From: Bryobacteraceae bacterium
Lineage (GTDB): Bacteria; Acidobacteriota; Terriglobia; Bryobacterales; Bryobacteraceae
DNA: 64,000 nucleotides
Assembly (NCBI GenBank): GCA_023384675.1
Contig: JAHDVK010000016.1
Coordinates: 1-64,000 of the forward strand
Direction of reading: 5' to 3'
Shown here: positions 47,116 to 52,542 of the stretch, one piece after another
How positions within the stretch are numbered: the stretch's first letter is position 1
Layout of the letters: each line of letters opens with the position of its first letter
Position numbers and translations under genes: made by a program
Notes under the pieces: model-generated
Database searches by the model: none
Told to the model about the DNA's origin: nothing
The model's input: the letters and a program-made list of their open reading frames with translations, nothing else

Positions 47116-48336
47116 ATGAAACGCCGCCTGTTGCTGTTTTTCGCCGCCGCGCTGCTGGCGCCTGCGCAATCCACGAATCCTGCCGCCGCGGGGATGGACG
47201 CCGCCCGCCTGGAGGCCGCCCGGGCGCGGGTCCGCGAGGCGATCCAGCAAGAGCAGGTAAGCGGAGCGGTGCTGCTGCTGCAGCGCAAGGGCGCGCTGGC
47301 GCTCCATGATGCCGCCGGTTTCCAGGATGTGGAGGCGAAGACGCCGATGCGCCCCGACAGCATCTTTCAGATCATGTCGATGACCAAGCCGGTGACCGGC
47401 GTGGCCGTGATGATGATGGTGGAGGAGGGGCGTTTGCGGCTCAACGATCCCGTGGAGCGTCATCTGCCCGAGTTTCGCGGGCAGTTGATGATTCAGTCCA
47501 AGACCGAGGATTCGCGGGTGCTCGTGAAGCCGCCTCGCCCGATCACGATTCGCGACCTGATGACGCATACTTCGGGGCTGATCGGAAATCCGCCGCCGGG
47601 CATCGCCGAACTGCTGCGCAAGATGGACCGGCCGCTGAGCGAAGCGGTGGCCATTTACGCTCAGCACCCGCTTGAGTTCGCGCCCGGGACCCACTGGATG
47701 TACTCGAACCCGGGCATCGCTACCCTTGGGCGGCTCGTGGAAGTGGCGTCCGGGATGAAGTTCGAAGACTTCCTGGACAAGCGCATCTTCGCTCCGCTGG
47801 GGATGAAGGACTCGCACGTCTATCTGCCGCGGGAAAAGCGCGCGCGCCTGGCGGCCCTGTACACGCTGCGGGATGGAAAGCTGGTGAAGGCGGGCGGCGA
47901 GGTGCTCGGCGGCGACGCGATGAAGCACCGAGAAGGCGCGGTGTACTCGGGGCCGGAGTACAGCCTGCACTCGACCGCGGCCGATCTGGCGCGCTTCTAC
48001 CAGATGATGCTCAACCGGGGCACGCTGGACGGCGTGCGGATCCTGTCGCCGGCTTCGGTCGCCATCATGACCGCCGATCACACGCCCGATATCCCGAGCT
48101 CGGGCTGGCTGCCGGCCGCCGGCTTCGGGCTTACCTGGGAGGTCACGCGCGCGCCGTTGGGCTCTTTAACCGGACTGACGAAAGGGGCATTTCACCACGG
48201 CGGCGCCTTCGGAACGTTCGGCTGGATCGACCCGAACCGCGATCTGGTGGGCGTGTTCCTGATCCAGCACGCGGGCAGCCGCGCCGAGATCCGCGATGCC
48301 TTCATCGGCATGGCCGTGGCGGCGATTGTCGAGTGA
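47116..48336 (+). CDS. Exported serine hydrolase, class C beta-lactamase-like
   Basis: A 406-residue protein with a signal peptide (MKRRLLLFFAAALLAPAQ). Penicillin-binding-fold motifs are S88-M-T-K91 (SxxK), Y-S-N (WMYSNPG) and HHGG in place of KTG (FHHGGAFGTFGW). This set fits the EstB/AmpC-related esterase and D-aminopeptidase group; true beta-lactamase activity is not implied. The start overlaps nothing; a much longer open frame upstream is antisense to the toroid gene. marR begins 8 nt after its stop. Confidence 0.88.
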   Translation: MKRRLLLFFAAALLAPAQSTNPAAAGMDAARLEAARARVREAIQQEQVSGAVLLLQRKGALALHDAAGFQDVEAKTPMRPDSIFQIMSMTKPVTGVAVMMMVEEGRLRLNDPVERHLPEFRGQLMIQSKTEDSRVLVKPPRPITIRDLMTHTSGLIGNPPPGIAELLRKMDRPLSEAVAIYAQHPLEFAPGTHWMYSNPGIATLGRLVEVASGMKFEDFLDKRIFAPLGMKDSHVYLPREKRARLAALYTLRDGKLVKAGGEVLGGDAMKHREGAVYSGPEYSLHSTAADLARFYQMMLNRGTLDGVRILSPASVAIMTADHTPDIPSSGWLPAAGFGLTWEVTRAPLGSLTGLTKGAFHHGGAFGTFGWIDPNRDLVGVFLIQHAGSRAEIRDAFIGMAVAAIVE

Positions 48337-48343
48337 TCCGGCG

Positions 48344-48775
48344 ATGCCCGAACTCGAACAGGAAGCCTATGTCGCGCTGCTTCGCGCCGCCGACGCTTTG
48401 ACCCACGCGCCAGCCGCGATGCTGAAGGAGCACGGCTTGACGCCCGCGCAGTACAACGTGCTGCGCATCCTGCGCGGGGCGGGCGCGGAAGGGCTGCGCT
48501 GCGGCGACGTCGGCGCGCGCATGATCCAGCGCGAGCCCGATATCACGCGGCTGCTGGACCGGCTGGAGCGGCGCGGATTGACTACGCGCACCCGCGCCAC
48601 GGATGACCGGCGCGTAGTGCATGTCACCATCAGCAGCGCTGGCCTGGAGGTGCTTGGCCGGCTCGATGGCCCCATATTGGAAGCGCACCGGGCGCAGTTC
48701 GCGCGGTTGTCGCCGCGACGGCTGGAGGAGTTGGTCCGGACCCTGAAACTTTTGTTGCCGCCCGAACATCTATAG
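48344..48775 (+). CDS. MarR-family transcriptional regulator
   Basis: A 143-residue winged-helix regulator. Helix-turn-helix region LTPAQYNVLRILRGAGAEGLRCGDVGARM...PDITRLLDRLERRGL, followed by the wing TRATDDRRVVHVTISSAG, then the C-terminal dimerisation helices. It is separated by 60 bp from the pirin gene, and that gap holds a perfect 25-bp palindrome. Regulation of pirin by this protein, relieved by a phenolic or oxidative ligand, is the likely arrangement. Confidence 0.92.
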   Translation: MPELEQEAYVALLRAADALTHAPAAMLKEHGLTPAQYNVLRILRGAGAEGLRCGDVGARMIQREPDITRLLDRLERRGLTTRTRATDDRRVVHVTISSAGLEVLGRLDGPILEAHRAQFARLSPRRLEELVRTLKLLLPPEHL

Positions 48776-48835: not shown

Positions 48836-49534
48836 ATGATCAAAGTCCGCCACGCCGCCGGCCGCGGCCGCACGCGCATTTCGTGGCTCGACGGCCGCCA
48901 CACTTTTTCGTTCAACCGCTTCTATGACCCGGAGTACATGGGTTTCCGTAGCCTGCGCGTGATCAATGACGATGTGGTCGCGCCGGGGGGCAAGTTTGGG
49001 ATGCACCCGCACGAGAACATGGAGATTCTGACCTGGATCCTGTCAGGATCCGTGGTCCACGAGGATTCCACGGGCGCGCGCGGCGAGATCCGGCCGGGCG
49101 ACATTCAGCGGATGAGCGCGGGCACGGGGGTCTTTCACAGCGAGGCGAACGGTTCGCAGACGGAGCCGGTGCGGCTGCTGCAGATCTGGCTGCTGCCTGA
49201 AAAGGAAGGCCTCGAGCCGAGTTACGAAGAGAAGCACTTTCCCGAGGAGGAGCGCCGCAACGCACTGCGCATGATCGCCTCGCGGGAGGCCGACAACGGG
49301 GCCGCCAAGATCCATCAGGATGCGCGCGTGTACGCCTCGCTGCTGGACCAGGACGCGCAGGTGGAGCACGAACTCGCGCCCGGGCGCCACGCCTGGGTGC
49401 AGGTGGCACGCGGCGAGGTGGTGCTGAACGGTACCGCCTTGAGCGAAGGCGACGGCGCGGCGGTGTCCGAAGAATCGAAGCTTGCGCTGAAGGCGGCGGC
49501 GCCCGCGGAAATTCTGTTGTTCGACCTGGCCTGA
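48836..49534 (+). CDS. Pirin-family (YhhW-like) bicupin protein
   Basis: A 232-residue bicupin. The N-terminal cupin has FNRFYDPEYMGFRSLRVINDD and the metal site GMHPHENMEILTW...(V)HEDS, plus QRMSAGTGVFHSE. Relatives are quercetin 2,3-dioxygenases or redox-sensing cofactors; the enzyme activity is not certain. The MarR operator lies immediately upstream, indicating induction by an aromatic or stress signal. GAGGAGG 7 nt before ATG. Confidence 0.94.
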   Translation: MIKVRHAAGRGRTRISWLDGRHTFSFNRFYDPEYMGFRSLRVINDDVVAPGGKFGMHPHENMEILTWILSGSVVHEDSTGARGEIRPGDIQRMSAGTGVFHSEANGSQTEPVRLLQIWLLPEKEGLEPSYEEKHFPEEERRNALRMIASREADNGAAKIHQDARVYASLLDQDAQVEHELAPGRHAWVQVARGEVVLNGTALSEGDGAAVSEESKLALKAAAPAEILLFDLA

Positions 49535-49555: not shown

Positions 49556-50509
49556 ATGAGCATGGCGGAGATCGTATCGATCCTGGAGAACCACGGCTAC
49601 GCCACGGTCTTCGCCGCGGTGTTTATCGAGCAGATGGGCGCGCCGGTGCCGGCGTTTCCCGTGCTGCTCGCGGCCGGGGCCTTCGCGGACCTCGGCCATT
49701 ATTCGTTTGCGGGCGCGTTGCTGGCGGCATTCGCCGCGGCGGTGCTGACCGACTGGCTGTGGTTCGAGCTGGGCCGCCGTCAGGGCCAGAAGGCGTTGAG
49801 CTTCCTGTGCCGTTTCTCACTCGAGCCGGACTCCTGCGTCACGCAGACCACGCATAGCTTTGAGCGCCACGGTCCGGCGACGTTGATCTTTGCGAAATTC
49901 GTGCCGGGGCTGAGCACGGTGGCGCCGCCGCTGGCGGGGAGCGCGCGTATGCCGCTGGGGCGGTTTCTGTTGTTCGATGCGGCGGGTGCGCTTTTGTGGT
50001 CCGCCGCCGGACTCGGGGCGGGGGTCCTGTTTCGGAACCAACTCGAGCGCGCAACTCTGCTGCTGGCCGAATTCGGCGGATGGATGACGGTTTTGCTCGG
50101 CGGCGGGCTTGCCACCTATGTTGCCATTAAGTTCTGGTTGCGGCGGAGAGTGGCTCTGAAGGACCTTGCGCGCATCACCCCTCAAGAGTTGCGCGCGCAA
50201 ATGGAGTCGGGCGAGCCTGTGACGATTGTGGACCTGCGCTCCGCGATCCAGGTGGAGCGGAGCGGGATGAAGATCCCGGGCGCGCTGGTGATGCACCCGG
50301 CCGATGCCGAACTCCATCTGCGCGGCACTCCGCGCGGCCATCACCTGGTGTTTTATTGCACCTGACCGAACGAAGCTTCGAGCGCCAGGCTGGCGCTGAA
50401 ACTCGCGCATCTCGGTTTTCAGTACGTTCGTCCTCTCGAAAGAGGGTTCGACGCCTGGCGCGCGAGCGGCTATCCTGTAGAGAAAATCGCAAAGGAGGGT
50501 GAAAGCTGA
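49556..50509 (+). CDS. DedA-family membrane protein fused to rhodanese; in-frame UGA at codon 270 (possible selenocysteine)
   Basis: Residues 1-~195 are a DedA/SNARE-associated membrane domain (GAPVPAFPVLLAAGAFA, FAKFVPGLSTVAPPLAG). Residues ~200-317 are a rhodanese domain (ITPQELRAQM, VTIVDLRS, HHLVFYCT). TGA at 50363-50365 interrupts the frame exactly in the active-site loop: C268-T-UGA-P-N-E-A-S-S-A, where relatives have CxCPNEAS. Downstream the same frame reads on as rhodanese (LALKLAHLGFQYVRPL, GFDAWRASGYPVE) for 47 codons to TGA 50507-50509. That stop overlaps the next ATG. A SECIS-like hairpin follows the UGA. Alternatives: nonsense mutation, sequence error, or a 269-residue truncated product. 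Confidence 0.75.
50381..50397 (+). promoter_or_regulatory. SECIS-like hairpin after UGA of DedA-rhodanese gene
   Basis: AGCGCC-AGGCT-GGCGCT: 6-bp stem, 5-nt loop, starting 16 nt after TGA 50363-50365. It meets the bacterial SECIS description (loop 16-37 nt from UGA, G within the first two loop bases). The loop AGGCU resembles the AGGUCU loop of E. coli fdhF. A palindrome CGAAGCTTCG lies between UGA and stem. Confidence 0.45.
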
Positions 50510-52542
50510 TGCGATTTCTGATTCTGTTGGCCATCTTCTGGCTGCCGCTGGCGGCACAGAACGTGAAGGTCGGATTCGACCCGTTTCGTCCCGAAATCGG
50601 GCCATTTCCCAACGATTTGCTGACCGTGCCGGACCGTTTCGCGCCTACCGGCCTGCGCGTGAACCTGCCGCTGCCCGACTGCGCGGCCCGCCCCGCGGCC
50701 TGCGCCGAGATCCGCGCGATCAATGAACTCGACGGATTTAATCCGCAGGGCCGCATGTCCGTGAAGTTCAGCGGGCCCGTGAACACGGACACGCTTCGCC
50801 ACGGGCTGTATTTCCTGTGGCTCGATCCGCTGATCGAGCGCCCGTACTCGATTGGACTGCGGGGACACATCAGCCTGGTGAACCAGGTGGTGTACGATCC
50901 CGCGACGAATACCGCCTACGCCCACGCAGACGAAGCTCTTGAGCAGTCTCGCCGCTACGCGATCATCGTGACCGATGCCGTGACCGATACCGGCGGCAAC
51001 GCGGTGGTGGCGGGTGACGGTTTCGAGCTGTGTCTCCGCCGCGAAGTGGGTGGAGAGTATTGCGAGGCGATGAGCGAAGCCGCCGAATTGGCCAGCCTCA
51101 ATCTGAATGGCGCGCGCGTGGTGGGCGGGTCGGTGTTCACCACACTTGCGGCGAGCGCTCCTCTGGAGACCATGCGCCGCGGGCTGGAATCCGCGCCCGT
51201 GAATTTCGTGCGCGGTCCGGTGGTGAACGCGGCTACGATATTGGGCGTCACGCTGCGCCGTCAGACGCGCGCCGACGGCACGCTTGACGATGAGGCGCTG
51301 CCTATCCCGCCGGGCTTTTTAGCAGCCTCGCAGATCGGGCGGATCGCGTTCGGCACGTTCTCCTCGCCGGCCGGCCCGATGCTGCCCGCCTTTGTCAACA
51401 TCCCCTTTCATGCGCTGCTGCCGGCCGCGCCACCGCCCGCGGGCGGGTATCCGGTGATCCTCGTGGGACACGGGATCGGGGACAACCGGTTCGGCATCCC
51501 CACGCTGGTGGCGGCGAATTACGCCTCGCGGGGCTACGCCGTGGTGGCATTCAATGCCGTGGGGCATGGGTATGGGCCGCAATCCGCGGTCCGGATCATG
51601 ACGCCCGCGGGGCCGCAGGATATCCCGGCGCCGGGCCGTGGCGTGGACCTGAACAATGACGGCATCATCAGCGCGAACGAAGGCTGCATCCTGTTGGCGC
51701 CGGGCGCGCCGATTGGAGCGCGCGAGTGCCTGCGCGGCACGGCCGTCGATTGGATGATGTTCGTGCGCCATCTGCGGGCCGGGATCGATCTCGATGGAGA
51801 CGGGCAGGTGGACCTGAACGGCGAACGGCTTTGGTTCCTGGGACAATCGCTAGGCGCGCATTACGGGTCGCTGTTGATGGCTGTCGAGCCGGGCATTCAG
51901 GCGGGCGTCCTCAATGTGGGCGGCGCGAGCGTGGTGGAAGCCGCGCGGCTCAGCCCCATTCTGCGCCCGTTCCTGCAGGCCTATCTGGGCTTGAGCCAGC
52001 CTCCGCTGCTGAACAATTTCCCCGATTTCGACGAGCAGTATACAGGGCGATGGCGGCCCGTGACGATTCTGGACAAGCCGGGCGCGGCGATGATCCAGCA
52101 GACCATCGACCGGCTATTGTGGATCGAAGCCCCCGCCGCGCCGGTCAATTTCGCGCCGCATTTCTGGGTGGCGCCGCTTCGCGACGTGCCCGCTAAGCGG
52201 GTGCTGTTCCAGATAGCCCGCGGCGACCGTTGGATTCCAAATCCGGTGTCCAGCGCCCTGGTCCGTGCGGCGTTCTCCTGGGAGTCCACTTCGGTTTACC
52301 GCCATGACCTGGCTCGGCTGGCGCAACCCATTCTGCCCGCCGATCCCCATGCGTTTTTGGCGTTCCAGTTGAATCCCATCTCGGCGCCAATCGGCGCGGC
52401 GGCCTTCGAGCAGGCGTTGCGCTTCCTGCAAAGCGGCACGACGCTGGTGCCGGACGTAAACCCGCTGGTGCGGCCACTGTTCGGCGCGGACCTGTTCGAG
52501 ACGCCCGCGCTGCTGCCGGAGGATCCGGGCTATCTGCCCTAG
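50509..52542 (+). CDS. Exported lipase-like alpha/beta hydrolase with N-terminal Ig-like region
   Basis: A 677-residue protein: signal peptide (MRFLILLAIFWLPLAAQ), ~250-residue beta-rich region with VKFSGPVNTDTLRHG (Ig/virulence-factor-lipase-like), then an alpha/beta-hydrolase with oxyanion region VILVGHGIGDN and nucleophile LGQSLGAHYGS (GxSxG). Two EF-hand-like loops (DLNNDGIISANEG and DLDGDGQVDLNGE) lie between them. The start codon overlaps the extended DedA-rhodanese stop by one base. The 3' end (EDPGYLP) lies in a 22-bp direct repeat that recurs after the toxin-antitoxin genes. Confidence 0.82.
   Translation: MRFLILLAIFWLPLAAQNVKVGFDPFRPEIGPFPNDLLTVPDRFAPTGLRVNLPLPDCAARPAACAEIRAINELDGFNPQGRMSVKFSGPVNTDTLRHGLYFLWLDPLIERPYSIGLRGHISLVNQVVYDPATNTAYAHADEALEQSRRYAIIVTDAVTDTGGNAVVAGDGFELCLRREVGGEYCEAMSEAAELASLNLNGARVVGGSVFTTLAASAPLETMRRGLESAPVNFVRGPVVNAATILGVTLRRQTRADGTLDDEALPIPPGFLAASQIGRIAFGTFSSPAGPMLPAFVNIPFHALLPAAPPPAGGYPVILVGHGIGDNRFGIPTLVAANYASRGYAVVAFNAVGHGYGPQSAVRIMTPAGPQDIPAPGRGVDLNNDGIISANEGCILLAPGAPIGARECLRGTAVDWMMFVRHLRAGIDLDGDGQVDLNGERLWFLGQSLGAHYGSLLMAVEPGIQAGVLNVGGASVVEAARLSPILRPFLQAYLGLSQPPLLNNFPDFDEQYTGRWRPVTILDKPGAAMIQQTIDRLLWIEAPAAPVNFAPHFWVAPLRDVPAKRVLFQIARGDRWIPNPVSSALVRAAFSWESTSVYRHDLARLAQPILPADPHAFLAFQLNPISAPIGAAAFEQALRFLQSGTTLVPDVNPLVRPLFGADLFETPALLPEDPGYLP
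52519..52540 (+). repeat. 22-bp direct repeat, left copy
   Basis: It begins GAGGATCCGGGC and is identical to 53351-53372. It forms the last codons of the lipase-like gene, just before its TAG stop. Confidence 0.9.

Follow-up and report, generated by a model that had tools for sequence, protein, structure and literature searches.

The closest described selenoprotein to the locus reported here is the 'LYCAU' rhodanese-related (seleno)protein, NF041203, which appears as rhodanese-like form 3, with the motif CxU, in Table 1 of a 2026 review (PMC13188914). The accessible part of that review counts 119 selenoprotein families and subfamilies, and its Table 1, as far as accessible, names no DedA, VTT or antiporter selenoprotein. 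A rhodanese joined to another domain is also found in the TsoB rhodanese/DsbD fusion-like selenoprotein (NF045694), which has two selenocysteines (Sec) in a UxxxxU motif. DedA proteins fused to an ordinary rhodanese have been described in the accessible text of two further papers (PMC10127716, PMC12893004); one gives PA1209 of P. aeruginosa as such a fusion (PMC12893004) and the other describes the link of the rhodanese to undecaprenyl phosphate as unclear (PMC10127716). The latter text links undecaprenyl-phosphate flipping to a pair of acidic residues in reentrant helix 1 and a pair of arginines in reentrant helix 2.

The locus examined here lies in a window of 64,000 nucleotides, the whole stretch of DNA that was analysed, which corresponds to positions 1 to 64,000 of contig JAHDVK010000016.1 (assembly GCA_023384675.1) from a Bryobacteraceae bacterium of the phylum Acidobacteriota. 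Its predicted product shares the C-x-U loop and the rhodanese domain of NF041203, its best NCBIfam match, and differs from that 126-position model in having an extra N-terminal DedA domain. It scores 86.9 bits, below the curated cut-off of 115, which was passed by no match in 61 related genomes; against the TsoB model it reaches 22.3 bits, compared with a cut-off of 805. Proteins publicly annotated as 'DedA family protein/thiosulfate sulfurtransferase GlpE' have the same architecture with cysteine, and four named plasmid examples carry C-x-C, whereas the window protein would have Sec in place of the second Cys. A literature search, with thin coverage of subscription papers and preprints, returned no report of a DedA–rhodanese selenoprotein fusion. 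We regard the DedA fusion as a new architecture for the known CxU seleno-rhodanese domain, common to many related bacteria.

Other CxU rhodaneses were also recovered. Standalone proteins of the phylum (L171, L172, L173, L174 and L175) combine a TGA with a hairpin like the one described below; L172 passes the NF041203 cut-off with 125.8 bits, while the others score 80 to 108. In one relative (G011), a K+/H+ antiporter-like protein (PF00999; L116:154-1884) ends in the same CxU domain and, like the window gene, has a TGA in frame together with this hairpin. A search of 200 genomes of the class at an E-value of 1e-60, run with no positive control, found no antiporter–rhodanese selenoprotein. A widespread family of this kind was therefore set aside, and L116 is claimed as a sole example. 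Because standalone, antiporter-linked and DedA-linked forms exist, the CxU rhodanese looks like a module.

A DedA–rhodanese gene with an in-frame UGA

The gene occupies positions 49556–50509 of the forward strand, on which all features given here lie, and encodes 317 amino acids, counting Sec270, with TGA as its stop codon. The initial annotation had placed a TGA inside an intact DedA–rhodanese frame that continues for 47 codons and ends at a TGA overlapping the next start codon, and the coordinates agree on every point. The single internal TGA of the frame lies at 50363–50365 (codon 270), flanked by YCT and PNEASSA, and 47 more codons lead to the TGA at 50507–50509, which overlaps the ATG of the next gene (50509). 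In the read-through protein, the DedA/VTT membrane domain (residues 31–156; 49646–50023) matches Pfam VTT_dom (PF09335) with 50 bits against a gathering score of 33.9 and is predicted by AlphaFold2 to form helices. The rhodanese-like domain (residues 208–303; 50177–50464) matches PF00581 with 39.9 bits against a gathering score of 22.2, and this match spans the TGA. Gly297 and Trp301, both past the TGA, are invariant in 30 aligned proteins, indicating that the downstream frame is conserved. Coding sequence is thus conserved on both sides of the in-frame UGA, a criterion for selenoprotein genes.

We compared the codon at column 270 in 64 loci that span the site, comprising the window gene, 48 loci from genomes and 15 from named contigs; the set leaves out L078, which is another copy of the window gene, L063 is without its N-terminal part, and L096 and L097 are identical. 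The codon is TGA in 34 loci, Cys (TGC or TGT) in 29 and Gly in one (GGC, L042), so that the column holds Cys or TGA in 63 of the 64, the pattern anticipated by the initial annotation for a Sec position. The TGA forms include L063, from a record titled Betaproteobacteria MAG. On the best tree, from a quick maximum-likelihood analysis, the state of the column changes eight times, and at least four changes are forced by well-supported branches. The window's own genome has four matches to the LYCAU rhodanese model, with TGA in the DedA–rhodanese gene only.

Several variants of the architecture were seen among homologues. A divergent DedA–rhodanese branch (L067, L168 and L187) keeps YCT-U and has a five-pair version of the hairpin; the Pro after Sec is replaced in all three (AREATSA, LREATSA and QREATSA, respectively). 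Genome G036 has a TGA copy of this divergent kind together with a Cys copy of the main kind. In G308, a second DedA–rhodanese copy (C5:1917548-1918450; L185) is interrupted by a TAG, has Ser in place of both residue 270 and Cys94, and may be decaying.

Selenocysteine machinery and the downstream hairpin

The genome to which the window belongs (5.73 Mb in 60 contigs, 97.4% complete) contains selA (contig C34), selB (C13, with a match covering nearly the whole model) and selD (C42), each over its cut-off, and a tRNA-Sec with anticodon TCA (UCA) scoring over the Rfam cut-off (C41). Close to its N terminus, selD has a TGA in frame (AGUASK), indicating that it carries Sec itself. No sel gene was found within the window (contig C40), where ARAGORN sees only a tRNA-Lys; the earlier observation that the window is free of selA, selB, selC and selD thus stands, and all four are on other contigs.

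The UGA might instead be read through as another residue (Cys, Trp or that of a suppressor), giving no selenoprotein. Cys is the alternative residue at column 270, and decoding of UGA as Cys by unusual tRNAs is known elsewhere. This reading is the least probable of those considered here, given a tRNA-Sec with anticodon TCA over the Rfam cut-off, selA, selB and a Sec-type selD in the same genome, the use of TGA as a stop codon as well and a SECIS-type hairpin that has been kept.

We next asked how the TGA form is distributed relative to selA in 396 genomes drawn from the phylum. A full-length match containing a single TGA occurred in 30 of them, and 39 had stop-free full-length matches only; these counts omit partial matches (DedA-only, rhodanese-only and the split G280 and G292 copies). 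For 20 of these 30 genomes the TGA was confirmed to fall in the aligned column; in the other ten (G115, G102, G089, G313, G086, G144, G083, G192, G317 and G269) the TGA is placed only inside the full-length match. The residue of the stop-free forms was checked in 15 of 39 and was Cys in 15 of 15. selA was present in 29 of the 30 TGA-form genomes versus 3 of the 39 stop-free-only genomes (Fisher P = 6e-15, uncorrected for kinship). Of the stop-free-only genomes, 36 of 39 belong to one family; within family f8, selA was found in 7/7 TGA genomes compared with 1/36 stop-free-only genomes. An independent-pairs test of Sec state against selA had too few contrasts, with one on well-supported branches and six on the best tree. 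In the window's own neighbourhood, represented by 61 genomes, selA occurs in 13 of the 14 with the TGA form. The exception (G032) and the 30th genome of the phylum draw (G400) both have selB and selD, so that the lack of selA is probably a gap in the assembly. The same 61 genomes also include stop-free forms in the company of selA, which is compatible with Sec coding, yet weakens the association.

These distributions also bear on a role in selenium supply, in which DedA would import selenite and the seleno-rhodanese would hand selenium to SelD. Second-hand accounts in the accessible parts of two papers connect a DedA protein of Cupriavidus metallidurans with the uptake of selenite (PMC10470534, PMC11422209). 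However, 36 of the 39 stop-free-only genomes are without selA, and selD was found in none of these 36. Because stop-free forms persist without selD, in genomes that would be expected to make neither Sec nor selenophosphate, we consider such a role improbable.

The initial annotation had described a hairpin with a 6-bp stem and the 5-nt loop AGGCU, starting 16 nt after the UGA, and had likened it to the bacterial SECIS (bSECIS) model. The coordinates match this description: a bSECIS-type hairpin spans 50381–50397, with arms at 50381–50386 (AGCGCC) and 50392–50397 (GGCGCU), a 5-nt loop at 50387–50391 and 21 nt from the UGA to the apical loop. The accessible text of the review gives the bSECIS constraints as a loop of 3–9 nt, an upper stem of 4–16 bp, a G at either of the first two positions of the loop, 16–37 nt from the UGA to the loop and a minimum free energy (MFE) of at most −7.5 (PMC13188914). 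The window hairpin falls within these limits, with 6 bp, 5 nt, 21 nt and G as the second loop base; its MFE is −12.0 on a 24-base fragment, in which RNAfold closes a 7-bp stem with a 3-nt loop that is still within the model. In the window gene alone, the hairpin is no better than chance: 10% of synonymous recodings match it with a loop G, 21% give an equally long stem, and the RNAfold z-score of −0.71 is not significant.

Comparison of homologues gave a different picture. All six pairs are present at the fixed place in 26 of 34 TGA loci, against an expectation of 4.3% from synonymous recoding, and in 2 of 29 Cys loci; all 34 TGA loci have G as the second base of the loop. In the TGA forms, 93.4% of cells retain their pair, with compensatory substitutions, a level reached by 0/500 shuffles; in 30 non-TGA forms the figure is 63.8% (104/500 shuffles), this set serving as the control because relatedness inflates shuffle counts. 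Codon choice is locked as well: the +7 Ala codon is GCC in 33 of 34 TGA forms, compared with a background of 43%, and Arg at +8 is never CGC. The fit to the bSECIS model is thus accompanied by conservation in TGA forms and relaxation in the others, and the evidential weight of the hairpin comes only from this comparison, not from the window gene alone. Among the Cys forms, L061 has all six pairs, with no G in its first two loop bases, and L031 has five of the six; both are possibly recent Sec-to-Cys conversions with a fossil SECIS.

If the TGA were a true stop, the locus would be a truncated DedA gene or a decaying pseudogene, or would carry a sequencing error, and the rhodanese remnant would no longer be made. 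TGA does also terminate translation here, as at the end of the DedA–rhodanese gene itself, and the window hairpin taken alone is not significant. This explanation is nevertheless very improbable in view of the TGA in the same column of 33 other loci, the Betaproteobacteria MAG record included, the conserved frame downstream, the presence of the Sec machinery, and a hairpin and codon choice that are tightly constrained among TGA forms but relaxed among the rest. Sec coding, a SECIS-type hairpin and the C-x-U motif are supported by computation. On the basis of the sequence comparisons, UGA-270 almost certainly encodes selenocysteine, which would give a DedA-type membrane protein with a Sec-bearing rhodanese-like tail; SelB and tRNA-Sec would read the codon, directed by the in-frame hairpin downstream.

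The active-site loop and the DedA half

The active-site loop of the tail would then read Cys268-Thr-Sec270. An AlphaFold2 model built from 16 sequences (mean pLDDT 79.7, pTM 0.53) places residues 268–270 in a loop after the strand formed by residues 263–267. The best PDB match to the model was the rhodanese 3tp9 (Z 15.9, r.m.s.d. 1.9, 106 aligned), and E. coli GlpE was also close (Z 14.4, r.m.s.d. 2.5, 105 aligned); both matches cover the rhodanese part only. Cys268 (50357–50359) is invariant in 30 aligned proteins and sits at the usual rhodanese cysteine position in profile alignments with 3tp9 and with domain 2 of 6mxv, as well as in a MAFFT alignment with seven ordinary rhodaneses, in each case with a two-residue insertion after Cys268. 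In the profile alignment with 6mxv domain 1, the cysteine falls at 270. Single-sequence alignments disagree, 3tp9 and 2hhg pointing to Cys268 and 6mxv (ungapped) to 270. If the two-residue insertion is allowed for, Cys268 is likely, albeit not certain, to be the usual catalytic cysteine. Whichever alignment holds, the C-x-U motif (YCTU) lies in the rhodanese active-site loop, in agreement with the C-x-U site proposed from Sec270 and Cys268, whose motif and loop position are borne out by the profile and multiple alignments.

The DedA half has several features in common with the DedA/VTT flippases (COG0586; UptA), namely the VTT domain, Glu25 as the first acid (column 25 is Glu in 59 of 63 fused loci) and a basic column 114, which is Lys in 64/64. 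The window protein falls far below the UptA cut-offs, and the fused proteins mostly lack the Asp of the PGD motif (column 34) and the second Arg (column 120), which we take, partly from motif spacing, to correspond to YghB D51 and R136. The Asp is found in 2 of 63 fused loci (Phe in the window) and the Arg in 0 of 64. In ten comparison loci where no rhodanese domain was matched, the Asp is present in 8 and the Arg in 9; one of the ten (L043) runs off the end of its contig and probably belongs with the fused genes. The combination of two acids and two arginines is therefore not seen in the fused proteins. Because two of the residues linked to flipping are mostly absent, a standard undecaprenyl-phosphate flippase role appears doubtful for the DedA half, which is probably an anchor or a carrier of another substrate.

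Two cysteines of the DedA half, Cys85 and Cys94 (C-x8-C; 49808–49837), are conserved in 64/64 and 63/64 fused loci, respectively, and may act as a redox partner of the C-x-U pair, a suggestion we offer as a lead only. Three proteins carry a residue other than Cys or Sec at 270. Two of them have also lost Cys94, namely L042 (Gly at 270, Leu at 94) and L185 (Ser at both), whereas the Ser270 paralogue L170 retains Cys94 and is a counter-example to their joint loss. Also at odds with the suggested partnership is a fused homologue from Burkholderia (L189), which has neither DedA cysteine yet keeps C-x-C. Among four closer DedA-only relatives, the Cys85/Cys94 pair is present in L160, L161 and L164 and absent from L162.

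Possible functions and neighbourhood

The C-x-U pair may form a selenenylsulfide, in which case the tail would be a membrane-tethered domain for thiol/selenol redox chemistry or for the handling of sulfane sulfur, at the inner face of the membrane. We tentatively put this chemistry, as distinct from that of an ordinary thiosulfate sulfurtransferase, at slightly under an even chance. A selenoprotein that works as a sulfur or selenium transferase, for example with thiosulfate, cyanide or sulfide at the membrane, would carry a persulfide or perselenide on Cys268, tuned by Sec270. The rhodanese fold is close to solved sulfurtransferases, including E. coli GlpE, Cys268 is invariant, and the GlpE annotation of a Cys homologue points the same way. 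Conversely, the C-x-U/C-P-N-E loop is two residues longer than in the seven aligned ordinary rhodaneses, and a second Cys or Sec at +2 would favour dithiol or selenenylsulfide chemistry. The recurrent neighbours, described next, offer no contextual link to sulfur metabolism, and we regard a transferase as possible but rather unlikely.

A pirin gene (48836–49534) lies directly upstream of the selenoprotein gene, as it does in 3 of 18 other neighbourhoods (4 of 19 with the window included), and is preceded by a gene for a MarR-family regulator (48296–48775), a possible member of the same operon. When ORFs of at least 90 amino acids were clustered at an E-value of 1e-12, the only other clusters present in at least 3 of the 19 neighbourhoods consisted of the selenoprotein gene or of ORFs that overlap this gene or pirin in a different frame. 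The pirin and MarR context thinly hints at a stress-response setting. Downstream, the gene at 50509–52542, which overlaps the stop codon of the selenoprotein gene, encodes 677 amino acids that look lipase-like by eye (GHG..., GQSLG), with no Pfam match.

A bolder reading of the redox chemistry, which we consider unlikely although worth stating, is that the CxU seleno-rhodanese is a portable redox switch on membrane transporters, here a DedA protein with a rewritten substrate site and, in one relative, the K+/H+ antiporter-like protein. The transporter would be gated by the state of a selenenylsulfide between Cys268 and Sec270, possibly exchanging with Cys85/Cys94, as a response to oxidants, electrophiles or sulfane sulfur that is coordinated with the neighbouring pirin and MarR genes.

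Read as a selenoprotein gene, the locus extends the use of selenocysteine to the DedA membrane family, and such genes in the phylum may well be annotated as truncated DedA proteins. The near-absence of flippase-type residues, together with the added C-x-U or C-x-C tail, suggests that a role in undecaprenyl-phosphate recycling should not be assumed for this branch. The finding would also offer a handle on the role of the rhodanese tail in DedA fusions.
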